From Prosopocoilus inquinatus (lineage: Eukaryota > Arthropoda > Insecta > Coleoptera > Lucanidae), in contig CM069870.1 in NCBI GenBank assembly GCA_036172665.1, positions 20,806,001 to 20,870,000 on the forward strand: a DNA stretch of 64,000 nucleotides, given 5' to 3'. Within the stretch, counting starts at the first letter, position 1. Every line of letters starts with the position of its first letter. Position numbers and translations under genes: made by a program. Below are positions 1,596 through 63,743 of this stretch, piece after piece. The notes under the pieces were generated by a model, which saw only the letters and a program-made list of their open reading frames with translations, ran no database searches and had not been told where the DNA came from.

Positions 1596-2000
1596 TATAG
1601 ATAAAATAGCGACATCTTACGATCGCTTTTTGACTTGACATTGCAGTAGGATAGACAAATTGAAGCAGGATTTGCTTCTAATAAGTCCCCCATGCAAGGC
1701 GGCCATGCTTGCTGTCAAAGCATAATGAAAGTTTTTAAAAAAAATTTGTGCAAATCGTTTTTGATTGCAGTGAAAACCTCGAGCAGCCTCTGGACAGCTG
1801 TTTCAGCCCTGCTTGGGGCTTCTTCAGCAGAGACATAGCTCGACATTCCCACTGAAAACAAAAACGACTTGTCCAATTTATTCGCAATTGCGATGTAAGA
1901 GTGATGAATAGATAAAGTAGCGATATCTTACGATCGCTTTTTGACCTGACATTGCTCGAGGTTTTCACTGCAATCAAAAACGATTTGCACAATTTTTTTT
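1596..2000 (-). repeat. Family A 312-bp hammerhead repeat, one unit plus a rearranged second start
   Basis: The left edge motif (ATAGATAAAATAGCGACATC) recurs as ATAGATAAAGTAGCGATATC at 1908, so the unit is 312 bp, the same period as in the independent locus at 17.7 kb. The second unit breaks off after about 50 bp at 1957 and joins an inverted piece (1957-1997) that ends at GATTTGCACAA followed by a T-run. The ribozyme lies at 1788-1832 on the minus strand. The repeat is treated as non-coding because different copies are open in different frames and strands. Confidence 0.8.
1788..1832 (-). ncRNA. Type I hammerhead ribozyme, family A copy 1 (all invariant residues kept)
   Basis: Read on the minus strand, 45 nt: stem I 5' CUCUG; core CUGAAGA; stem II AGCCC/GGGCU with a six-base loop; GAAA; stem III C-G plus the A15.1-U16.1 pair, closed by an AGCU tetraloop; cleavage triplet GUC; stem I 3' CAGAG, fully complementary to CUCUG. 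This matches the type I hammerhead consensus, in which position 7 is free. Very short stem III helices are known from hammerheads of Penelope-like elements and retrozymes. Self-cleavage is predicted, not shown. Confidence 0.8.
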
Positions 2001-2387
2001 TTAAAACTTATTATTACACGTATGATCAACCCCTTTCTTCACTGAGCTTGATTGCCATAGGAATAATTTCTTCGACTTTTCACCGTTGTCGACTCTTGTC
2101 AAGTTGGTTTTATTATTTATAAGAGAGGTTATACATAAGGTGACTGACCATACCTCCCGATTTTTAACAATTTGTCCCGCAAACCGCAGAGTTTTAAAAA
2201 GTCCCACGTTTCGGCTGTACATTTTGTATATTCTAGAATAGATTATAAACCAATTATTAACGAGGGATCTTTTGGGTCGACTATGAGTCCATTAAATAAG
2301 ATCTATTTCACATTATTCTTTTTTAATTTTGCCATAATACATATATTACAGCGTCATATTTGAAAACCTTTTTATTTCCGATAAAAC

Positions 2388-2705
2388 AGCGACATCCTAC
2401 GATCGCTTTTTGACCTGACCTTGCAGTAGGATAGACAAATTGAAGCGGGATTTGCTCCTAATAAGTCCCCCATGCAAGGCGGCCATGCTTGCTGTCAAAG
2501 CATAATGAAAGTTTTTAAAAAAAATTGTTGCAAATCGTTTTTGATTGCAATTGCGAATAAATTGGACAAGTTGTTTTTGGTCTGCAGTCGGAATGTCGAG
2601 CTACGTCTCTGCTGATGAAGCCCCAAACAGGGCTGAGACAGCTGTACAGAGGCTGCTCGAGGTTTTCACTACAATCAAAAACGATTTGCAACAAAATTTT
2701 TTAAA
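2388..2705 (+). repeat. Family A copy 2, head-to-head rearranged
   Basis: 2388-2547 is the minus-oriented half of the 312-bp unit. It contains the conserved GCGACATC, AAGCGGGATTTGCTCC and GGCGGCCATGCTTGC motifs. At about 2548 it switches abruptly to the plus-oriented half, which carries the ribozyme. The right end is again GATTTGCAACAAA plus a T-run, as in the copies ending near 1997, 13400 and 15213. Confidence 0.75.
2607..2651 (+). ncRNA. Hammerhead ribozyme, family A copy 2 (GAGA in place of GAAA)
   Basis: Stem I CUCUG/CAGAG is perfect and the core is the classical CUGAUGA. Stem II is AGCCC/GGGCU, stem III has the AGCU tetraloop, and the cleavage triplet is GUA. The conserved GAAA reads GAGA, which changes an invariant core adenine, so this copy is probably inactive. 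Confidence 0.7.
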
Positions 2706-2809
2706 TCTTTTTATTTGCGTTGAAAATAATTAGTTGTTAAAAAATACTCAATTTTTTTTAATAAGATAATGATAGAAGACCAAGCTGTTGATGAGTACGT
2801 AGCGATGAA

Positions 2810-3700: not shown

Positions 3701-4340
3701 AACCTGGACTGTACCAGTACACCTTATTTAATTAAGAAGTCCAGTAGAAGTGTGACTAATCTGAATTAGAAATCATATTGAAGTATGACTCATATGAAAA
3801 TACAAAATTAATAACATGCATCTTACGTAACGAAGAGCATTAGTCATACTAGAGTGTTATGTTAAAGCTTGTTCTTCTTTTACACTGTCTTGCAAATCGT
3901 GAATCAACGGTGACTCATTAGAAAACTCCCGATGTAAGCTAATTCTACGAATTGCAGGGTAGTTTCAGCTACCCACGTCAACCGTGGACTTCGTAATAAA
4001 TAGGATGAGATTTATTCCATTATAAAAAAAATTCCGATTTAATTGAAATAAAGTGTACCTGGGAAGCATCCACCACCAGTACGGACGAGTGTGAATAAAG
4101 AGTTATTGTTAATAAAGTTTTTTTTTTTTTTAGAAGAATACTGGTTTAGATAGATCAGCCCTTCTCTGTGTCATGGTCTGGTTTCAGTTAAAAATTCAAT
4201 TAATTTATTAATTAAACGAAATTCGCATATTCTTTGTTGATATTCTCTTTGTTATTGTAAGAAAACTTCTCTGATAGTTGAATATGTTTTATAAGTACAA
4301 AGTTTTTTTAATCTCGAACTGGACAGAAATATGAAGGGAA
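3700..4340. other. No gene recognised; possible retroelement remnant
   Basis: Several AATAAA-type signals and a T-run sit near 4100-4130 (GAATAAAGAGTTATTGTTAA). This could be the 3' part of an old LTR or retroposed sequence, but no second LTR or coding relic is visible. Confidence 0.2.
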
Positions 4341-4344
4341 CACA

Positions 4345-4382
4345 CTCAACGTTTCGCTATAGATTTATAGCTTCGTCAGGAG
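4345..4382 (-). ncRNA. Penelope-type hammerhead ribozyme motif (family C)
   Basis: Minus strand: stem I CUC/GAG (3 bp); core CUGACGA; one unpaired A; stem II GCUAUA/UAUAGC; GAAA; then CGUU directly followed by the stem I 3' strand. Stem III is therefore A-C/G-U with no loop, the arrangement described for minimal, probably dimeric hammerheads of Penelope-like elements. A 16-bp perfect inverted repeat (4362-4377 / 4382-4397) overlaps the core. Confidence 0.65.
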
Positions 4383-4397
4383 ACGAAGCTATAAATC
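4362..4397. repeat. Perfect 16-bp inverted repeat overlapping hammerhead C
   Basis: GATTTATAGCTTCGTC and its exact complement flank the four bases AGGA. On the minus strand this hairpin uses stem II and core bases of the hammerhead, so the two folds exclude each other. Confidence 0.85.
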
Positions 4398-4429
4398 ATA
4401 ACTAAGGACAAAACAAAAAGGCGTGGATC

Positions 4430-13264: not shown

Positions 13265-13405
13265 TTAAACAGCGACATCCTACTATCGCTTCTTGACCTG
13301 ACATTACTACGCTTCAATGATGAAGCCCTAAATAGGCCTGAAACAGCTGTACAGAGGCTGCTCGAGGGATTCATTGCAACCAAAAACGATTTACAACAAA
13401 TTTTT
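13265..13405 (+). repeat. Family A copy 3 (short, head-to-head)
   Basis: About 40 bp of the minus half (AACAGCGACATCCTACTATC) is fused to the plus-oriented ribozyme half, ending at GATTTACAACAAA plus a T-run. It interrupts a monomer of the ~270-bp array. Confidence 0.65.
13312..13356 (+). ncRNA. Decayed hammerhead, family A copy 3
   Basis: GAAAC, the AGCU tetraloop, GUA and CAGAG are kept, but the core reads AUGAUGA and the 5' stem I strand no longer pairs with CAGAG. Stem II is weakened. Predicted inactive. Confidence 0.5.
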
Positions 13406-14992
13406 TACAATTTCTTTTTAATTTGTGGTCCAATTCGAAACAACTTTAAAACTAATTTCTTTTAAACAGCTAGCTGTCAAACAAGCAGATTAACTTTAAA
13501 TTTCACAATTCACGGTCTTAAATAGTCGGCCTTCTCTTTTTTCTTATTCTTTTTGTGTATTATCCATACCACTTGCTTAAAATATCTCAAAAAAATAGAA
13601 GAAGCAAGTTAAACAACTGTCAAAATAGATCTACAAATTTGACAGTTGACCGTGTGTGACAGTAAACCTTTTCAGTTGCTAATTTCTTTTTTATTTTATA
13701 GTCAAATTTGCATGTTCGCAACACTTTTTAAAATAATTTCTTCTAAAAAGCTAGCTGTCAAAGAAAATTGTTGACAGATTAACCCTAAATTTGATAGTTG
13801 AGGGTCTTTCTGTTTGTGTGTAATCCAATGCGTTTGCTCAAGATATCATTTTTATAAAAATAGTTAGAAAAACTTTCTCTTTTTAAACAACTGTCAAAGT
13901 AGAACGACAAATTCCTTCTCTTTTTTCTTCTTCTTTGTATGTGTTATCCACACCATTTGCTCAAAATATAAAAAAAAATAGAAGAACTTTCTTTTGTTAA
14001 ACAACTGTCAAAATAGACCTACAAATTTGACAGTTGACCGTGTGTGACAGTAAACCTTTTCAGTTGCTAAAGTCTTTTTTATTTTATGGTCCAATTTGCG
14101 TGTTCAAAATAATTTCTTCTAAACAGCTAGCTGTCAAATAAAATAGTTGGCACATTAACCCTAAGTTTGATAGTTGACGCTCTTTCTGTTTGTGTGTAAT
14201 CCAATGCTCAAGATATCTTTTTTATAAAAATAGTCAGAAAAACTTTCTCTTTTTAAACAACTGTCAAAGTAGACCGACAAATTTGATCGTGGGTAACATT
14301 GAACCTATTCAGTTGCTAACTTCTTTTTTAATTTGTGATCCAATTTGCATATCAAAACAATTTTTAAACTAATTTCTTTTAAAATAGCTAGTAGTCAAAC
14401 AAAATTGTTGACAGATTGACTTTAAATTTGTCTATCTTTTATTTTCCTTAGTTTTTTCGTGTGCTATCAATTCCAGTTGCTTAAAATATTCTTTTTTGAA
14501 TAATTAGGAGAACTTTCTTTAAACAACTGTCAAAGCAGACTGACAAATTTGACAGTTGACCGTCTGAAACAGTAAGCCATTTCAGTAGCTAACTTCTTTC
14601 TTGATGATTCAATTTGCATGTTCAAAACAATTTTCGAAATAATTTCTTTTAAACAGCTAGCTGTCAAACACGATTTTTGGCAGATTGACTTTAAATTTGA
14701 TAGTTCACGGTCTTAAATAATCGGTCTTTTCTTTCCTCAACTTTTTTTTTGTGTGCTATCCGTTTCGATTGCTTAAAATATTTCTTTTTATAGTTAGGAG
14801 AACATTTTTTACACAACTGTCAAAGAAGACAGACTAATTTGACAGTTGACCATCTGAAGCAGCAAACCTTTTCAGTTACTAACTCTTTTTTTTAGTTTGT
14901 GATTCAATTTGCATGTTCGAAACAACGTTCAAAATAATTTCCTTTAGCAGTCAAAAAAAATTGATTTGCAGATTAACTTTAAATTTGACGAA

Positions 14993-15215
14993 TAGATAAA
15001 ACAGCGACATCTACGATAGCTTTTTGACCTTACATTGCAGTAGGATAGACACTATTACATCGCAATTGCGAATAAATTGGGCAAGTCGTTTTTGTTTGCA
15101 GTGGGAATGTCGAGCTACGTCTCTGCTGACGAAGCCCCAAGCAGAGTTGAAACAGCTCTACAGAGGCTGCTCGAGATTTTCACTGCAATCAAAAACGATT
15201 TGCAGCAATTTTTTT
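14993..15215 (+). repeat. Family A copy 4 with possible target-site duplication
   Basis: It begins GAATAGATAAAACAGCGACA (minus half, about 65 bp) and switches to the plus ribozyme half, which ends in a long T-run. The array sequence on the left ends AATTTGAC and resumes on the right with AATTTGGC. This near-identical 8-mer could be a target-site duplication within the ~270-bp monomer. Confidence 0.65.
15121..15165 (+). ncRNA. Hammerhead, family A copy 4
   Basis: Stem I CUCUG/CAGAG is perfect, the core is CUGACGA and GAAA is intact. Stem II is weakened (AGCCC against GAGUU) and stem III has a C-C mismatch before the triplet CUA. Activity is doubtful, although the invariant core bases are present. 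Confidence 0.6.
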
Positions 15216-15400
15216 TTTTTAATTTGGCAGTTGATGGTCTTAAATAGTCAGTCTTTTGTTTTCCTCACTGCTATCCGATCTATTTGCTCAAAACATATTT
15301 TTTTAAATAGATTAAGAGAGTTTACTTTAAACATCTGTCAAAGTAGAGCGATTACTACTTTGACAGCTGCCCATCTGTAACTGTAGACATTTTCCAAATC

Positions 15401-16204: not shown

Positions 16205-17113
16205 AAATCGTTTACCACGCATTTTATTTTTGATATTTGGGAACAAAAAGAAATCATTAGGTAATAAATTAGGTGAATATGGACAATGAGTCATTCATTC
16301 AACATTTTTGTTGGACAAAAAATCAACTGTTTGACGAGCTGTGTGAGAGCTGGCGTTGTCTTGATAGAGACTAATTCGTCGATTTCGATTGTTTCTTCTT
16401 ATTTGATCAATGACTTCCGCCAAACAAATTATAGTATACCAATCAGCATTCACGGTTTTTCGATCCTCTAAAGCCACGGTTGCTACATGTCCAGTTAAAC
16501 CAAAGAAACAAGCATCCATTTGCATCGCAGCACTGTGTGAACGGACAACTTTTGTTAGTTTTGGTTCATTTTGAAATACCCAAACGGTAGATTGTTGTTT
16601 ACTTTCTGGCTCGTACGAATAGATCCACGTTTCGTCACCAGTAACGTTGTTATAAACTAAATTTGAACGACCTCCGTTAAATTTCTTGAGCATTTCTTCG
16701 CACCATTTGACACGACCCTGCTTTTGCGCTTCTGTTAAATTGTGTGGGATCCAACTACTGCAAAGCTTTCGTACGTTCAAATGATCTTGCGAAATCTGGC
16801 GTATTGCTTTCATGTCAATGCGTAAGGATGCTTGAATCTCACGGTATGTCACATGTCGATCTCGCTCAAGCATTTCACGCACAGCATCTACATTAGTGGC
16901 AACAACAGATGTTGATGGACGACCTTCACGAAATTCGTCACTGAGAGAGGTACGTCCACGCTGGAATTCGACAAACCAATTATAAACACTGCTCTTTGAT
17001 GGTGCTTTATCTCCAGAAGCCAAATGAAGCCGATCGAGGCATTGTTTCGGCGTTAGGCCACATTTGAAATCGTAAAAAATCATGGCACGAAAATTTTCAC
17101 GCGAGATTTTCAT
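16205..17113 (-). pseudogene. Mariner-family (DD34D) transposase, one in-frame stop and truncated C-terminus
   Basis: A 272-codon frame opens with MKISRENFRAMIFYDFK at 17113. It has the N-terminal helix-turn-helix region, then HNLTEAQKQGRVKWCEEM, the first catalytic aspartate in TGDETWIYSYEP, and the second in LYQDNASSHTA. A TGA follows at 16295-16297, and the same frame continues at once with MTHCPYSP, with the third aspartate in NDFFLFP. Exactly 34 positions (counting the stop) separate the second and third aspartates, as expected for mariner. After MRGKRF similarity is lost, so the last part of the ~345-residue transposase is missing. One stop plus truncation suggests a fairly young non-autonomous copy. 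Terminal inverted repeats were not found. Confidence 0.9.
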
Positions 17114-17685
17114 GTTTACACAAAATTACTTTTTCTCAAATGCTGCACAAACAAAACTAGTTCACTTGGATAGGAACTGTCAATAGAATTATAAGCGAAA
17201 AACGTCAAATTTTTCAAATATGACAGTTGATAAACGCTAACAATTCTAGACCTACTAGATTCCAAAAAATTTGCCAGCAGCCCACGCACAAGGATCTTTT
17301 ATAAATGACGTATAACAGACGATTGTGCAGGTTTTATATAACGATTATCGAACTAAAATGTCAAACGGAACTAATGCAGGTTTATAATTGTTGTCATAAT
17401 ACTATATTAAAAAGCAAGTTTCACAAGACATTTTATTTTAGCACGCGAGTATCAAGTGGCCTAGGTTTCCTATACTATTTTTCTGTTTTGGTTCTTCGAT
17501 GAAAAACAAGTTACTAGTTCGCGCTTGAAATAATTTCTAATGTCGATTTGGAGGTTATGTTTATAATTACATATTTTGTGAGCTCTGAGGGCGTGTTTAA
17601 TATGTTTAAAATTTACAATGACAACAAATAAAGTAATTTCAAACATGTATCAAGTACATATTACCATGGGATGATGTAAATAAAA
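17114..17685. other. Mariner 5' flank and unassigned DNA
   Basis: About 17114-17290 probably holds the mariner 5' untranslated region, but no terminal inverted repeat could be matched to the truncated other end. The rest is AT-rich with nothing recognised. Confidence 0.35.
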
Positions 17686-17742
17686 GTTTTTAGAAAAAGT
17701 TTGTGCAAATCGTTTTTGATTGCAGTGAGAACCTCGAGCAGC

Positions 17743-17787
17743 CTCTGGAGAGCTGTTTCAGCCCTGCTTGGGGCTTCTTCAGCAGAA
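17743..17787 (-). ncRNA. Hammerhead, family A copy 5
   Basis: Core CUGAAGA, stem II AGCCC/GGGCU, GAAA and AGCU tetraloop are intact. Stem I is UUCUG/CAGAG with one U-G wobble. The residue before the cleavage triplet is C (CUC), giving a C-C mismatch in stem III. Activity is uncertain. Confidence 0.7.
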
Positions 17788-18054
17788 ACGTAGCTCGACA
17801 TTCCCACTGCAGACCAAAAACGACTTGCCCAATTTATTCGCAAATGCGATGTAAGAATGGTGAACATATGAAATAGCGACATCTTACCATCGCTTTTTGA
17901 TCTAACATTGCAGTACGATAGACAAATTGAAGCGGGATTTGCTCCTAATGAGTCCCCCATGCAAGGCGGCCATGCTTGCTGACAAAGCATAATGAAAGAT
18001 TTTAGAAAAATTTTGTGCAAATCGTTTTTGATTGCAGTGAGAACCTCGAGCAGC

Positions 18055-18099
18055 CTTTGGACAGCTGTTTCAGCCCTGCTTGGGGCTTCTTCAGCAGAA
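18055..18099 (-). ncRNA. Hammerhead, family A copy 6
   Basis: Canonical core, GAAA, stem II and GUC triplet. Stem I is UUCUG/CAAAG with one C-A mismatch and one U-G wobble. It is exactly one 312-bp period from copy 5. Confidence 0.7.
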
Positions 18100-18323
18100 A
18101 CGTAGCTCGACATTCCCACTGCAGACCAAAAACGACTTGCCCAATTTATTCGCAAATGCGATGTAAGAATGGTGAACATATGAAATAGCGACATCTTACC
18201 ATCGCTTTTTGACCTAACATTGCAGTAGGATAGACAAATTGAAGCGGGATTTGCTCCTAATGAGTCCCCCATGCAAGGCGGCCATGCTTGTTTTTGGTCT
18301 GCAGTGGGAATGTCGAGCTACGT

Positions 18324-18368
18324 TTCTGCTGAAGAAGCCCCAAGCAGGGCTGAAACAGCTGTCCAGAG
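18324..18368 (+). ncRNA. Hammerhead, family A copy 7 (all invariant residues kept)
   Basis: Core CUGAAGA, AGCCC/GGGCU stem II, GAAA, C-AGCU-G stem III, GUC triplet and stem I UUCUG/CAGAG with a terminal wobble. This is the best plus-strand candidate for self-cleavage and lies in the inverted copy. Confidence 0.8.
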
Positions 18369-18745
18369 GCTGCTCGAGGTTCTCACTGCAATCAAAAACG
18401 ATTTGCACAAAATTTTTCTAAAATCTTTCATTATGCTTTGACAGCAAGCATGGCCGCCTTGCATGGGGGACTCATTAGGAGCAAATCCCGCTTCAATTTG
18501 TCTATCCTACTGCAATGTTAGGTCAAAAAGCGATGGTAAGATGTCGCTATTTCATATGTTCGTAAATAAAATTGTTTATTCAGGATTTGGAGGAGAATTT
18601 TTTGTATTGTGTTACACTGTGATAAATGCATTACATAACAGTAAGTCTTAGTAAGAGTATTAACATAATAATTTAATCTTATAAAGTTTGCAATGTATTG
18701 CATAATAAATAGCTTAAAAAACCTGTTGGTATTGCATTTTTTATA

Positions 18746-19701
18746 ACGAGTGTTCAATAAAAAAAACGGTCAAGTAGGCTGTAGCAGGCTTTTTTTGCCG
18801 GGAACGCATGTCGTGATTAACATCATTTGCATTTCAACTTTTATAAGTTGACGGTTAACCTAACCAACAAAACTCGAAAGTTGCTCCTGCAAATTTTTCT
18901 CCAATATTTATTTAATATAAATATTCGGTAAGTATTTTGTAAATTTCTGTCTAAAAATTGTTAATTGCAGAATCTGAACAAGAGGCGTTACATTTTACTT
19001 GGTGATTGGAATTGTTTTGTAAAAATGGTTTATACAAAAAACGTTTATTATCGAATCCTATTGGTAATGGAACAAAAATTGATAGAAATTGGACGTATTC
19101 TTTGAAGGTAAGTAATGAACTTGTTGAAATTGATATTTGCATTAACATTTGAGGAAGTTCACGATTATGAATTGGAACAGGGATATTTTCAGCAGGATGG
19201 AGCTACTCCTCTTTGCACACGGGAAACTTTAGCTGTGTTGGGTGAATTTTTTAAAGACATAATCATTAGTCGGAATACTGTTCTTCCTTGGCCTCCGAGG
19301 TCCTATAATTTAACTGTTTGTGATTTCTTCTTGTGGCGTTACATAAAAAACTCAGTATTGACCACTCCAGTTCATAATTTAAATGACCTGAGACAGAGGA
19401 TTACTAATAAAATTCAAGAACTCAACCAATCTCCTCATATCTTAGAGAACCTGATGAACGCAATTAAACGCAGAACCTTGAAATGTCTTCAGGAAGGAGG
19501 TGGACACTTTCAACATTTGTTATAATTTTTGTAAAAACTTTTTAAAGTTAGTAATAAACGTTTATTTTTTAAATGTCTTCTTTGAGTTAAAGTGAGGTTA
19601 GAAATGCAAGTGCCGCTTCACACTAGTCGTATACGTTATACGCTATACGTTCAGAATACATTCATAGCTATCTAGACCGTTTTTTCTAATTGAACACTCG
19701 T
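18746..19701 (+). mobile_element. Rosa-like (DD41D) Tc1/mariner-superfamily element, internally deleted, both ends present
   Basis: The terminal inverted repeat ACGAGTGTTCAATAAAA at 18746 is matched by TTCTAATTGAACACTCGT ending at 19701, with the match extending through ACGGTC. TA dinucleotides flank both ends, the target duplication expected for this superfamily. At about 956 bp it is shorter than an autonomous element, because the middle of the transposase gene is missing. A related end lies at 63744. Confidence 0.85.
19025..19525 (+). pseudogene. DD41D transposase remnant (start and C-terminal catalytic part)
   Basis: ATG at 19025 opens MVYTKN, the usual beginning of this transposase type, and the frame is soon lost. 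From about 19115 the C-terminal region is readable: FQQDGATPLCTRETL with the second catalytic aspartate, WPPRSYNLTVCDFFLWRYIK with the third, then a helical tail ending LQEGGGHFQHLL before a TAA. Exactly 41 residues lie between the two aspartates, which points to the rosa-like DD41D group. The segment with the first aspartate is deleted, so no active enzyme is encoded. Confidence 0.8.
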
Positions 19702-20284: not shown

Positions 20285-20885
20285 TAAAGTGTATTGGAGT
20301 AGTTTGTAGTACAAAAAATTGGATTTAACCTCCTAACCACAAAACGTTTTTTTTTTTAAACTAGATACGTCTCATTTTCAGTAGATGACTTTTTCTTGAT
20401 CACAAGAGGAGTGACTGTGTTATGCATGTCGCTACTTTATATACTAATTCGTTCCGCTCCAATGAAGCGTGCTCTCTAAAGCGAGCATCTCACCGGATTG
20501 CGTCAACCAAGTCAAGCAACACGGAACGTGCCAAAGGCTCATGATCGGTGTTCATTAAATCTCTCTTACTTTTGTATATGAAAATGGTTTCAAATTGGTC
20601 TAATTCCCTGTTGCTCTGCTGTTGCGGGTTTGAAACCATTTTCATATACAAAAATAAGAGAGATTCAATGAAAACCGATCATGGGCCTATGGCAGGTTCC
20701 GTTTTGCTTGACTTGGTTGACGCAATCCGGTGAGATGCTCCCTTTAGAGAGCACGCTTCATTGGAGCGGAAGGAATTAGTATATAAGGTAGCGACGGGCA
20801 TCTACTGAAGATGGTAGCATAGCTGCCGAAATACGGATTTAGTTCTTAAAAGAACTTTTTAGGGTTAGGAGGTTAAATCCAACCT
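20285..20885. repeat. Family B foldback, ~560-bp palindrome
   Basis: The left arm begins TTGGATTTAACCTCCTAACC (about 20320) and the right arm ends with its complement GGTTAGGAGGTTAAATCCAA near 20882. The arms match almost throughout, down to a centre near 20600-20640 (TTTGTATATGAAAATGGTTT and its complement). The left flank GTATTGGAG...GTAGTACAAAAAA is shared with the family B copies at 24537 and 56333. The right arm carries a hammerhead motif. The left arm equivalent has lost stem II. Confidence 0.85.
20802..20842 (+). ncRNA. Hammerhead motif, family B copy 1
   Basis: Stem I CUA/UAG; core CUGAAGA; one unpaired U; stem II GGUAGC/GCUGCC with one G-U; GAAA; stem III U-A plus A15.1-U16.1 closed by ACGG; cleavage triplet AUU. 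The layout is the same as family A but stem I is only 3 bp, so activity would need tertiary contacts or dimerisation. Confidence 0.6.
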
Positions 20886-24395: not shown

Positions 24396-24694
24396 CCTGC
24401 GTTCAGCACAGGGATCAGACAATAACACAACGCAATTTTGGATTATGCCTAAATTCAATAAATTTTCTCACTCACTCAACAAAGCCTCAACAAAGGTCAA
24501 ACTGCATGTAACAAATATCAAAAACTATATTCGAATGTATTGGAGACCGTGGTTTGCAGTACAAAAAACAATGGATTAAATCTCATAGCCACAAGAAGTT
24601 TTTTAATATTAAATACGTATTTCGGCAGCTAACCTTCCATCTTCAATAGATGACTTCTTCTTAATCACAAGAGAAGTGATCCAGATGAAGTCAT

Positions 24695-24735
24695 CTACTG
24701 AAGATGGCAGCCTAGCTGCCGAAATACATATTTAG
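24695..24735 (+). ncRNA. Hammerhead motif, family B copy 2
   Basis: Stem I CUA/UAG, core CUGAAGA, stem II GGCAGC/GCUGCC perfect, GAAA, stem III U-ACAU-A, triplet AUU. Confidence 0.6.
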
Positions 24736-24783
24736 TATTAAAAATCTTCTTAATCACAAGAGAAGTGATTCAGAAGAATTCAT

Positions 24784-24824
24784 CTACTGAAGATGGCAGC
24801 CTAGCTGCCGAAATACGTATTCTG
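24784..24824 (+). ncRNA. Hammerhead motif, family B copy 3
   Basis: Same core and perfect stem II with ACGU tetraloop. The 3' stem I strand reads CUG instead of UAG, so stem I is broken and this copy is probably inactive. Confidence 0.5.
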
Positions 24825-25140
24825 TATTAAAAAACTTCTTGTGGTTATGAGATTTAACCCAATTTTTATTATCAAAAACTATGTTAAACAACTTTTTAAC
24901 TTGAGCACAAATCCGTTAACGTGTTTAATCAGATCTGATTGAACAAGTGGACTTTTGTCCTAAATGACGAAAGGGATTTAAAACAATGAAATTAACTACG
25001 AAAATCACGCACCGTGCAGAAATTGTTCACAAGCAAATAAATAAATAATGAAGCAAATCAAAAGTAAACTTCACGATTTAGGTTCTTGGGTCCTGCCATC
25101 TGAGGTGAAGTCTTGGCGAGCAGGCGTCGCACTGCGTCAG

Positions 25141-55377: not shown

Positions 55378-55600
55378 TTGTTACGACATATTGACGTCCC
55401 ACTGTCCAAAGAAAGGTACAACAAAGAACTTAAATTTATTAAAGATGTAGCAATTCACAATGGTTACTCAGTAGATATAGTAGAAAATATGTTAAGGAGA
55501 ATTGTAAATAAGGCCAATATCAAAAAATTTACCACTTTGTTACCAGCTAAATATATTAAAATTCCGTTTGACAAAAGCTGCTCTAAAGGTTTAAATATAG
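55378..55600 (+). pseudogene. Penelope-like element coding fragment (RT to GIY-YIG linker)
   Basis: The frame reads HIDVPLSKERYNKELKFIKD, then VAIHNGYSVDIVENMLRRI and about 30 further residues to PFDKSCSKGLN. The pattern of a final RT-thumb histidine, P-L-S, an EL-x-x-IK helix, an A-x-x-NGY turn and a following I/V helix is typical of the segment after the reverse transcriptase in Penelope-like proteins. Neither the RT palm upstream nor the GIY-YIG domain downstream is recognisable, and the later frame is low-complexity. The fragment shows a PLE once existed at this locus, relevant to the hammerhead families. Confidence 0.6.
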
Positions 55601-56332: not shown

Positions 56333-56556
56333 TTGGAGACTGTGCTTTGTAGTACAAAAAAATTGGATTTAACCTCCTAACCACAGAAAGTTTGTTAAAA
56401 AAAAACTAAATACGTATTTCTTCTTCTTGATTACAAGAGAAGACTTCTCTTGTGATCACGAAGAAGGCATCTACTGAAGATGGCAGCATAGCTGCCGAAA
56501 TACGTATTTAGTTTTTAAACAAACTTTTTGTGGTTAGGAGGTTAAATCCAATATTT
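56333..56556. repeat. Family B foldback, short copy with one hammerhead
   Basis: Left flank GTATTGGAGACTGTGCTTTG. Arms ATTTAACCTCCTAACCACAG and TGTGGTTAGGAGGTTAAATC. A central inverted pair is AAGAGAAG-ACTTCTCTTGTGATC. The left-arm ribozyme module is deleted, while the right-arm module is intact. Confidence 0.8.
56471..56511 (+). ncRNA. Hammerhead motif, family B copy 4
   Basis: Stem I CUA/UAG, core CUGAAGA, stem II GGCAGC/GCUGCC perfect, GAAA, stem III U-ACGU-A, triplet AUU. It is the best-preserved family B copy. Confidence 0.65.
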
Positions 56557-57740
56557 CTTTTTTTTTTAACTAAAATTGTCACATAAATTATGAAAAACGT
56601 TAATTCTTGAATTTAAATAGAAGGATGGAATGTGAAAATGGATGTTAAACGGCCAAAATACCGGGTGATCCACGGAATTCATAATTAGAGGAGGCTGTGA
56701 TTGGTTCTATTTTATGCTGTGTGGTTGGATAAACTGAGAAATAAATAATAAATTGACAGTTGTCATATTTGAGGTTATGCTCGTGCTTTATACAACCTTT
56801 ATTTTGTTATTTTATTTTGTATGAACGCTGGTTTAAATCATTCTTAAAAATTAAAAATAAATAAATGTCACAATTCTGACATTTCAAATTGTTAATTTCA
56901 AACTGCGAGTCCAGTTGAATTTTTTTCTGTGTTTCTCTAAGTATTAAATTATTAAGTATTATTTTTTTTGCTTATCCCACAATCTAGCATAAAAGCTTTA
57001 AGAGGTGATGCTGTATGATTCAACAAGTCAAGTTGTCTTTTTCCTTTTTATTAAAACTTTTTTCTTCGCACTTAAGAAAGTGTTTTTTGTGTTTGTGTGT
57101 AAATAGGAGTTGCGCGATTTCTACGGGCGGAGGTTCCAGTAAAAACGCCAGCAGTTCCGCGTCGTCTCAGCGATTAGAAGAAGAAGAAAAAAAACCTAAC
57201 AACAAATTTATTTATTCTTCTGTCACTGTTTACCATTACGATTGTTTATTGCATTGGCGTCGCACGTACGCAATATTGAGTTCTCACAGACAGACGTGTT
57301 CCCCAGACACAGAGAGTTTCACACTGAAACGCAGGCGGAATGAACGCGCGGAGTCGGGAGGAGATCAGGGCTGCCATTCATCTAACAGAAAGATTTACTA
57401 CAAATACAAGCGACTTCGACCGTAACAGAGTTAAACATTGGCGGTAACACTGAAGAAGGAACATGACCACGCGTTTGACAAAAAAAAATTCAAAGACGTT
57501 TTGGTCGAAAACTCGATGACGCGGGTAAAAAGAGAGCGTAACTCGCTCAATGTAAGCAGTAAATCAGTTAGAAGCCAACCTAAGAAGTAAACACGGGGCG
57601 AAAGGTTTAAAAAAAGTTAGAATAATGGTCGACTACGTTAGTAGTAGAAAAAAACCCAAGAGAGAAATGGACGGGTTTAGGTGACCAAGCACGATCAGTG
57701 TCAAGCAGCTGAGACAAACTGGGGATAATAATACACACAT
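56557..57740. other. No gene confirmed; one weak exon-like stretch
   Basis: From a possible acceptor (TTGTGTGTAAATAG, ending about 57109) the frame reads SCAISTGGGSSKNASSSASS and then an acidic/basic stretch, ending at 57425. The low-complexity serine/glycine composition is seen in insect regulatory proteins but matches no family and no donor site is evident. Confidence 0.2.
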
Positions 57741-60505: not shown

Positions 60506-60511
60506 GTGTTA

Positions 60512-61270
60512 TGTTAATCTTTCAGATTTAACATATTTTATAATGTCATTAACATATAGAAGGAAAATTAATGGTCCCAGCACCGATCCCTGCGGAACTC
60601 CAAACTTTGTTTCGTCCTGGGAAGAATAAGTATTACCTACTTTTACATATAATTTACGGGCAGTTAGATATGACCGTATCCAATTTAGTATCACACCCCT
60701 TATTCCCATAGCATTCAACTTGGTGCAAGCAAACTCAACGTCCAGACAGTCAAATGCTCGAGATAGGTCAAAAAAGAGCCCAGCGGCATGATGCCCATCG
60801 TCAATGCAATTGTAGGTACATTGAACGAGGTTGACAGCAGCGTCCTCTGTCGATTTGCCTTCGCGAAATCCAAATTGACAATCAGATAATATATTACAAA
60901 CATCAAGAAATTTTTTTAGTCAACCACAGATCACTCGTTCGAAAACTTTGGATAAAGTATTTAAGATTGAAACAGGTCGATAGTTGTTAATATCCAAACT
61001 GTCGTTTTTCTTATAGATAGGTATAATAACTGCAATTTTCAGTAGCGATGGGAATATACCCACTTCGAAAGAGTGATTAACTATTTGACTAAGAGGTTCA
61101 GGTATAATATCTTTGGTTGCTTTTAAGATTTTTGTCGATATATTATCGATACCCACACTATTAGTGTTTTTAAGTTCTTCCTTAATTTTCATAATTTCTT
61201 TACCATCCCTAGGTATAAAAGCAAAAGACTTAGGATTAACACTGTCCACTGTACATTCCAATGAGTACAT
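60512..61270 (-). pseudogene. Reverse transcriptase domain, one in-frame TGA, catalytic FADD block deleted
   Basis: The frame has SVGIDNISTKILKATKDIIP, KIAVIIPIYKKNDSLDINNY, RPVSILNTLSKVFERVI, then an in-frame TGA at about 60920-60922. It continues QFGFREGKSTEDAAVNLVQC, GLFFDLSRAFDCLDVEFA (motif A aspartate present), RKLYVKVGNTYSSQDE and VPQGSVLGPLIFLLYVNDI (motif B). It stops a few residues before the expected FADD motif because of a deletion. Confidence 0.85.
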
Positions 61271-62905: not shown

Positions 62906-63054
62906 AGTACAAAAATAACGGAGAACCAGCAGAAATCCGTTATACACGTCTAATAATATTCAGGCTTTTCCAAATGGTGTTAACTGTACGCTTACAACGT
63001 CGTTTAAGCTTTAAAGTGAACGGACATAAATTTACTGTCGAAATTTTTATTTCA

Positions 63055-63095
63055 AAAATTTTTGTTGTAAATCGTTTTTGATTGCGGTGAATCCC
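63055..63095 (-). repeat. Family A fragment (terminal ~35 bp)
   Basis: TTGTTGTAAATCGTTTTTGA then TTGCGGTGAATCCCTGGAGC matches the end of family A next to the ribozyme. It begins at the same T-run boundary seen in the other copies. Confidence 0.6.
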
Positions 63096-63743
63096 TGGAG
63101 CATCCTTAAGCTTTTGATTTTGATTTTATTTGTTTTGCCTAAGATGTGTGTATAGGTGTCCCATTTTCGATGGTATTGTACAGGTTTCTTCATGAGTAAT
63201 GGAAACAGAACAGAATCCAGAACTTAATATTGAGTTTTAACTTTTAATGCTAATTTAAATGGTTTAATCAAAAATTCTCTGTTTCCTCTTGTTTTGTGGT
63301 ACGATTGAAAAATGTAAAATTTACCAATATTTTAAATGCAAATAACTTTTTTATTTTTAAAGATACGAAAAAATGATAGCTCTTTCGTTTGATTTTTAAC
63401 ATAGATTATGGTTCCTTAATTAACAATTAAATCACATGAAGACTTCATAATAGCCAAACTACGAACTCAATTTTTTTATATAACGAGTGTCTCAAAAACC
63501 TTAATAATCTGGACGCTCATGAGATCATAAGAGATAATTCGAATTGTAATATTTGACTATTTGAAAACTGAATGTCTGATATACAAATTATGCAAAAAAT
63601 TAAAAATCTTGGGCTTTATTTGATCCACCATATCAATTATTGGTTAATATTCAACTTATTTTTTACTGGTCAGAGGCGTCTGGATTATAAGACTTGCGAC
63701 ACATGTTAGTTTATATTGTTTGAAATTGTTTATGTAATTTATA

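Follow-up and report, generated by a model that had tools for sequence, protein, structure and literature searches.

Animal non-LTR retrozymes are small tandem repeats that carry type I hammerhead ribozymes and are expressed as RNA circles, and analogous repeats are described in insects among others (Cervera and de la Pena 2020, PMC7229834). Penelope-like elements (PLEs) are put forward there as a strong candidate for their helper; both the helper enzyme and the circular template have so far rested on shared traits and co-occurrence (PMC7229834, PMC7761336). In Adineta, PLEs are described with head-to-head pLTRs and a tail on one inverted end, target-site duplications (TSDs) of 8, 9 and 10 bp are named for Penelope copies, and self-priming was proposed because of palindromes at the inverted junction (PMC3846280). 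The protein PAc of the Anolis Poseidon PLE is reported to cut and extend both strands, to start at two adjacent internal RNA sites and to insert in vitro with its hammerhead dispensable (PMC11167929).

Here we analyse a 64,000-nt stretch of the Prosopocoilus inquinatus genome (hereafter the window), in which an earlier note had pointed to a 312-bp tandem unit with a hammerhead motif, together with the genome itself (650 Mb, 173 contigs), which holds relatives of this unit. We call the repeat family A. From the anatomy of its insertions, family A is probably an animal non-LTR retrozyme whose circle was copied from two fixed start sites by Penelope-type machinery.

Results and Discussion

Insertions and hammerhead motifs in the window

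Mapping onto the 312-nt unit, in which position 1 is the base directly after the cleavage site, resolves the window into five family A insertions (A to E) and one old fragment, the latter left out of the insertion-locus counts (Table 1). Every insertion consists of two arms, the left on the minus and the right on the plus strand, joined 5′-to-5′. The two outer 3′ ends of each of the five align to different parts of the unit, the first to 54-78 (site 1) and the second to 189-198 (site 2). The left arm of insertion E has its inner 5′ end at unit 82 and its outer 3′ end at site 1, where it aligns to unit 69 because the match runs into the TSD. No TSD was found for insertion C, its longest exact flank match being 7 bp, and the longest exact flank repeat of insertion D is 6 bp; neither is above chance.

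This inverted head-to-head architecture is absent from the earlier note's description, which had taken tandem units for the main form; in the loci seen here head-to-head twin arms are the rule. The interval it had marked, 17686-18562, corresponds to one full insertion to within one base, lying between two 10-bp target duplications. Units 312 bp apart had been claimed at two loci: the tandem at 17679-18290 is real, and the supposed second one is a mere 44-nt overlap in a 356-nt arm (1601-1955) with a 1-base gap.

Table 1. Family A features in the window; unit positions refer to the 312-nt unit
Feature	Position	Strand	Description
Insertion A	1596..2006		Two arms; unit mapping, flank repeats
Left arm of A	1596-1955	-	Unit ~192-197 to 149; ~1.14 units
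Right arm of A	1953-2006	+	Unit 8 to site 1
TSD of A	1586-1595 and 2007-2016		CTTATTATTA; exact 10-bp repeat
Hammerhead motif, A	1788..1832	-	Intact; Rfam Hammerhead_1 and descriptor
Insertion B	2378..2706		Two arms; unit mapping, flank repeats
Left arm of B	2378-2549	-	Unit ~192 to 24
Right arm of B	2544-2706	+	Unit 210 to site 1
TSD of B	2368-2377 and 2707-2716		CTTTTTATTT; exact 10-bp repeat
Hammerhead motif, B	2607..2651	+	GAGA in core for GAAA; motif inspection, Rfam Hammerhead_1
Insertion C	~13267..13426		Old; 79-85% identity to unit
Left arm of C		-	Unit 189 to 151
Right arm of C		+	Unit ~267-279 to 78
Hammerhead motif, C	13312	+	Damaged; C3 and stem I lost
Insertion D	~14990..15214
Left arm of D		-	Unit 198 to 136
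Right arm of D		+	Unit 206 to 54
Hammerhead motif, D	15121	+	Mismatches in stems II and III
Insertion E	17686..18561		Two inverted arms joined 5′-to-5′
Left TSD of E	17676..17685		GTAAATAAAA; exact 10-bp direct repeat abutting element
Right TSD of E	18562..18571		Exact 10-bp direct repeat
Left arm of E	17686..18290	-	~1.94 copies of 312-nt unit; hammerhead strand minus
Right arm of E, inverted	18290..18561	+	Unit 239 to 198; outer 3′ end at site 2
Hammerhead motif, E	17743..17787	-	Stem III mismatch
Hammerhead motif, E	18055..18099	-	Stem I mismatch (CAAAG)
Hammerhead motif, E	18324..18368	+	Intact type I (CUGAAGA, GAAA, GUC); Rfam Hammerhead_1, descriptor
Old fragment, single	63049..63107	-	Unit 61 to 3; 83% in BLAST match

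A type I hammerhead layout was found at all seven places for which one had been claimed. The order is stem I, CUGANGA, stem II, GAAA, stem III, UH and stem I, with stem II formed by AGCCC/GGGCU around a six-base loop and with a very short stem III closed by a palindromic AGCU loop. The copies at 1788 (-) and 18324 (+), to which every invariant residue had been ascribed, do keep CUGANGA, GAAA and UH together with stems I and II and the short stem III; the other five are damaged. A strict type I descriptor, written after the motif was seen and run on both strands, matched these two copies in the window and none in 300 dinucleotide shuffles of the 64 kb. Moreover, the proposed check against the Rfam type I model returned Hammerhead_1 (RF00163) alignments spanning model positions 1-45 of 45 at 1787-1833 (-; 25.8 bits, E 8.9e-5), 18323-18369 (+; 23.8 bits, E 4e-4) and 2606-2652 (+; 18.6 bits, E 0.022), the E-values being per 101 bases and all three scores lying below the gathering score of 34. 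A 1300-base Rfam scan gave Hammerhead_HH9 (E 3.6) as its sole hammerhead family. Exact hammerhead patterns had no match in virus and prokaryote contig collections, a search with strict patterns that is uninformative on animals. Among the window copies the variable columns include N7 (A4, T2, C1) and H17 (C4, A3), both positions at which the hammerhead ribozyme tolerates change.

The two-site rule in loci sampled from the genome

A 591-bp query, which favours long copies, gave 101 matches at 38 places besides those of the window (best 40 of 1577 candidates). Relatives of the tandem unit, for which the earlier note had suggested a search of the genome, occur at at least 38 places outside the window, with head-to-head arms that are often multi-unit. 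These 38 places are spread on ten contigs and most have TSDs, unlike a satellite. Together with the five window insertions and one locus (L048) from the GIY-YIG search described below they make a set of 44 loci, of which 41 were scored; a segmental copy of L024 (L027) and two loci cut at retrieval (L032 and L043) were left out. Within L034 a second copy, and within L024 a third segment, were likewise disregarded. Five loci with extra inner segments (L021, L026, L037, L040 and L042) were typed by their outermost ends.

In 35/41 scored loci one outer 3′ end lies at site 1 (median unit 61) and the other at site 2 (median unit 198), with site limits (49-90 and 185-212) that were fixed after the ends were seen. 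Where two arms were present and both ends could be typed, one end per site was found in 35/37 loci (p 1e-8 against 0.5). The exceptions are L009, with site 1 twice, and the nested L017, with site 2 twice. One end stayed untyped in each of L033 and L038, and L015 and L044 have a single arm. Exact target repeats of at least 10 bp flank 25/35 loci, compared with 12/1190 swapped flank pairs (the test leaves out L027, L043, L032, L017, L042, L033, L038 and L015). In the 25 loci these repeats span 10-14 bp, which may take in up to 8 bases of the element edge, and their A+T content is 85% versus 64% for the window.

The ribozyme core, the circular fold and tests for coding

The hammerhead likeness could in principle be a decayed or chance fold in an element that is really a SINE-like or fold-back repeat. 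The sub-gathering Rfam scores would suit this, as would the ribozyme stems, which are no more conserved than the rest of the unit (16/904 versus 139/9245 changes). The 11 core positions behave differently, with 0/384 changes in locus consensuses versus the same 139/9245 outside the ribozyme (p 0.007), and the core is kept in 34/34 fully covered locus consensuses and 129/137 single copies. Window insertions A to D, each with fewer than two full ribozyme copies and B, C and D being damaged, carry no weight in this count. The contrast after insertion is weak (6/1510 versus 293/36824, p 0.098), and within the window copies by themselves deviations are slightly more frequent in the ribozyme than elsewhere in the unit (26/368 versus 89/1711). 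The empty shuffles also argue against a chance fold. As regards a SINE, the window held 0 tRNA (ARAGORN, bacterial code) and 0 Rfam families at gathering score; as regards a fold-back repeat, the two outer ends come from two different sites of the unit and are therefore not terminal inverted repeats. An LTR layout is absent from the segmented loci. We consider a decayed or chance fold very improbable, and a retrozyme-like element with a type I hammerhead appears to be the best fit to the 312-nt unit.

Tandem units close on themselves at 312 nt, without a coding part. The unit has a G+C content of 43.6% and as a circle is highly self-paired (circular MFE -104.0, z = -5.4 from 100 shuffles). Both start sites are unpaired in the circular fold of the family consensus; when a single unit is folded, site 2 becomes partly paired.

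One stop-free frame runs through the unit (window 17661-18317, minus strand, unit frame 0). An endless ORF of 104 codons round the circle was considered and rejected, the frame not being kept in other copies: elsewhere it holds 3 stops versus 4.3 expected by neutral change, with gaps in 6/8 pieces. No protein relative of the frame was found among 3956 candidates and the ORF across the unit had no Pfam match; its second codon positions vary less across the window copies than the other two (23 versus 45 and 47). The family A unit is non-coding and lacks the RT and GIY-YIG of an autonomous PLE.

Arm 5′ ends and the template

Arm ends and lengths were counted in 29 simple loci; the one-arm loci L015 and L044, the locus L048 and 12 others were left out. 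Round the circle, the 5′ ends of these 58 arms show no departure from a uniform distribution (KS p 0.11), and 5/58 fall within 10 nt of the cleavage site, compared with 3.7 expected. A linear monomer cut at the hammerhead was therefore rejected as the main template, the arm ends having no pile-up at the cleavage site. More than one unit is present in 40/58 arms, the longest in a simple locus being 1780 nt (5.7 units); the exceptional locus L009 reaches 7.5. The junctions overlap by 1-6 nt in 21/29 loci, a frequency taken without a chance control.

A second possible template is an uncleaved linear multimeric transcript in place of a circle, with two-ended PLE-type priming retained. Eleven diagnostic sites, picked because they differ between loci, are discordant in 40% of comparisons between locus consensuses, in 6.9% within an arm and in 9.2% between the arms of a locus; at 289 near-constant sites the figures are 0.6%, 1.25% and 1.44%. 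These figures exclude L027, L043, L032 and L033 and treat segments as arms, so that some of the discordance comes from nested loci (L017, L026 and L042) and from an adjacent fragment within L024. No diagnostic site differs within arms in 19/35 loci (some discordance in 16/35), nor between segments in 17/32 (some in 15/32), and in L039 five full units of one arm share one identical haplotype. Such uniform units within arms are what repeated copying of one circle predicts. Clearly mixed unit types occur in L025, L028 and L041 and in the last two full units of L009, as a linear multimer would allow, and such discordant loci imply that template jumps, linear multimers or later events occur too. 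PAc hammerhead mutants, moreover, are reported to leave insertion in vitro unaffected (PMC11167929). Besides the uniform arms, the unchanged ribozyme core of the locus consensuses speaks against a linear multimer, and so do the arm 5′ ends, which rarely coincide within one locus, in contrast to the PLE described below. On balance we regard a linear multimer as an unlikely template and favour the circle.

Co-resident Penelope-like elements

A search of the same genome for GIY-YIG returned many matches (best 150 of 2232 candidates), from which 26 loci (L047-L072) were retrieved. A PLE that we call PLE1 carries RVT_1 and GIY-YIG in a single frame (L054). It appears as a young family (L047, L050, L053-L070 and L072) whose matches to L054 are mostly 97-99.7% identical, and bears a minimal kind of hammerhead-like motif, named by eye. 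Three further loci (L049, L051 and L052) form a second element family, 92-95% alike in their longest matches; L051 has GIY-YIG and a weak RVT_1 match, and another hammerhead-like motif occurs in this family.

Seventeen PLE1 loci were segmented, and in 16/16 two-arm insertions (without L071, in which one arm matched) one 3′ end is long (2044-2047) and the other short (2004-2011). The second full arm was unseen in L047, L050 and L053-L055, which were not counted; L047 shows 2045/2017. The head-to-head form was selected for, because loci were chosen as close GIY-YIG pairs, minus then plus (L056 came with the search and not as a pair); the long/short rule was not. PLE1 flank repeats measure 11-17 bp, without a chance control. 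The two start sites of PLE1 lie ~39 nt apart, versus ~137 nt in the retrozyme.

The inner ends of the arms bear on a third explanation, in which the head-to-head form arises when one cDNA primes its own copying (self-priming or copy-back), a route that has been proposed for PLEs with an antisense template. In Adineta the proposal was prompted by palindromes found where the inverted copies meet (PMC3846280), and PLE1 arms often end near the same point, several loci doing so near reference 1344. On the element, the inner end points of a locus's two arms differ by at most 20 nt in 11/16 PLE1 loci versus 2/29 retrozyme loci (p 2.5e-5; 3.8 expected by chance in the retrozyme), with PLE1 arm differences typed by hand, a value of 0 taken for L056, whose left arm has an inner deletion, and for L065, which has 43-bp junction repeats, and a short distance between the chosen GIY-YIG pairs that may favour equal arms. 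Self-priming would also explain the PLE1 junctions. For the retrozyme it was rejected, a rejection that does not extend to PLE1: arm 5′ ends of one locus lie within 10 nt of each other in 2/29 loci versus 1.95 by chance, and each outer end lies at its own RNA site, adjoining a target repeat. Self-priming thus receives hardly any credence from us as the origin of the family A arms. Under two-ended priming the contrast in arm ends is expected if only the RNA of the PLE, and not that of the retrozyme, possesses a 5′ end: a circle would leave arm ends scattered, and a linear PLE RNA arm ends that often coincide.

Alternatively, family A could represent no more than the pseudo-LTR of some autonomous PLE, the present copies lacking its coding part. 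PLEs do share the hammerhead, the TSD and the head-to-head form, and in L048 a GIY-YIG fragment is found close to an insertion of family A. Of the 26 GIY-YIG loci, however, L048 alone has family A sequence; the insertion there is an ordinary one whose ends map to 195 and 57, and the tandem units, as noted above, close on themselves with no coding part between them. A pseudo-LTR origin is in our estimation quite improbable. The PLE1 3′ region and the retrozyme start sites have no sequence likeness (P 0.72 and 0.79 against shuffles), and the data therefore support a class of helper for the retrozyme and not a helper family.

Other repeats in the window

A second family with minimal hammerhead-like motifs (CTGAAGATGGCAGC..GCTGCCGAAATACGTATT) is found at 20293-20880, 24540-24862 and 56333-56560. 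It is also head-to-head, its left arms carrying an extra ~33-bp tail (3/3, by eye) and its right arms none, and it looks like PLE pseudo-LTRs; the stretch 24640-24860 had no Rfam hammerhead match at E up to 1. A relic of a Penelope-like protein at 55384-55596 (+) has 38% identity over 79 columns to the PLE1 frame and no Pfam match, and the ORF at 55378 of the window had no match in phages by tblastn. A further CTGACGA..GAAACG motif lies at ~4320-4400 (-) beside a long near-perfect hairpin, again with no Rfam hammerhead match at E up to 1.

Insertion E is flanked by Mariner-type transposase fragments at 16295-17125 (-), with a Mos1 HTH domain, and at 19112-19525 (+), which was named by eye only and has no Pfam match. 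A reverse transcriptase fragment (RVT_1) at 60509-60919 (-) probably belongs to a non-LTR element, as judged by eye. Diverged repeats of a few hundred bases (AAACAACTGTCAAA..ACAGTTGACCGT), likewise recognised by eye, occur at 13400-15400 near insertions C and D.

Comparison with known systems

Family A resembles the animal retrozymes described in PMC7229834, which are tandem-capable repeats of 150-450 bp with a type I hammerhead, a G+C content below 50%, a self-paired circle, TSDs longer than 4 bp and co-resident PLEs. The retrozyme-like reading of the earlier note is supported on these points, the 312-nt unit being non-coding, and its helix III, with few base pairs and a palindromic loop, is reminiscent of amphibian retrozymes in the same paper. 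Family A departs from the retrozymes described there in that, as a rule, the loci seen have head-to-head twin arms with two fixed start sites; the main text of PMC7229834 uses none of the words 'inverted', 'head-to-head' and 'opposite'. Among the titles and abstract openings searched, a scope with few subscription papers, none was found on two-ended insertion of retrozymes. The mobilising machinery, proposed in PMC7229834 from shared traits and co-occurrence, is here supported by insertion anatomy, and the general remark in the earlier note on PLE help gains the same support from the element's own genome.

Head-to-head inverted copies and TSDs are shared with the endonuclease-containing PLEs described from Adineta and Anolis (Poseidon). 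The PLE insertion trait of one longer ('tail') and one shorter 3′ end is found in family A as well, in the 35/37 typed two-arm loci, with a gap of ~137 nt compared with a 31-bp tail in Adineta (PMC3846280) and ~39 nt in PLE1. Unlike in PLEs, an ORF is missing from family A, the stems of its hammerhead are full, and its arms have unmatched 5′ ends and run several times round the unit. Judged from its sequence, it appears to insert like a PLE and yet is not classed as one.

LINE-1 twin priming is similar in that a single RNA is primed from both ends of the target and the resulting cDNAs are joined head-to-head. Inversion occurs only now and then in LINE-1, and the place of the second priming is variable. 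Family A differs in that both start points are fixed and the head-to-head form is the rule.

Proposed mechanism and conclusions

We propose that a multimeric transcript would be cut by its type I hammerheads and a monomer closed into a circle. A Penelope-type RT/GIY-YIG endonuclease would make a staggered double-strand cut in an AT-rich target, the two breaks lying perhaps ~10-13 bp apart, and both DNA 3′ ends would then serve as primers for copying the RNA circle, from site 1 (unit ~61) at one of them and from site 2 (unit ~198) at the other. Either enzyme may go round the circle several times, and the two cDNAs would be joined 5′-to-5′ between two copies of the target site. The cleavage, the circles, the stagger and the choice of any one PLE as helper are inferred. 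The parts of this scheme that the sequence data show are the insertion anatomy, the start sites, the target repeats, the unchanged core in multi-copy loci and a PLE with the same rule.

Taken together, these data point to a real retrozyme-like family with many similar copies and a Penelope-type two-ended insertion signature. We lean, with some reserve, towards the wider view that retrozyme circles are integrated through near-obligatory two-ended target priming by a Penelope-type RT/endonuclease, the cDNAs meeting head-to-head. As to the origin of the inverted copies, two-ended priming fits the retrozyme and self-priming does not. The insertion anatomy links retrozymes with integration of the PLE type and provides a signature from which a circular template can be read, and the two-site rule can be tested in any assembled genome with retrozymes. 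If the view is correct, genome anatomy alone would reveal which retroelements were copied from circles, and also which kind of enzyme mobilised them.
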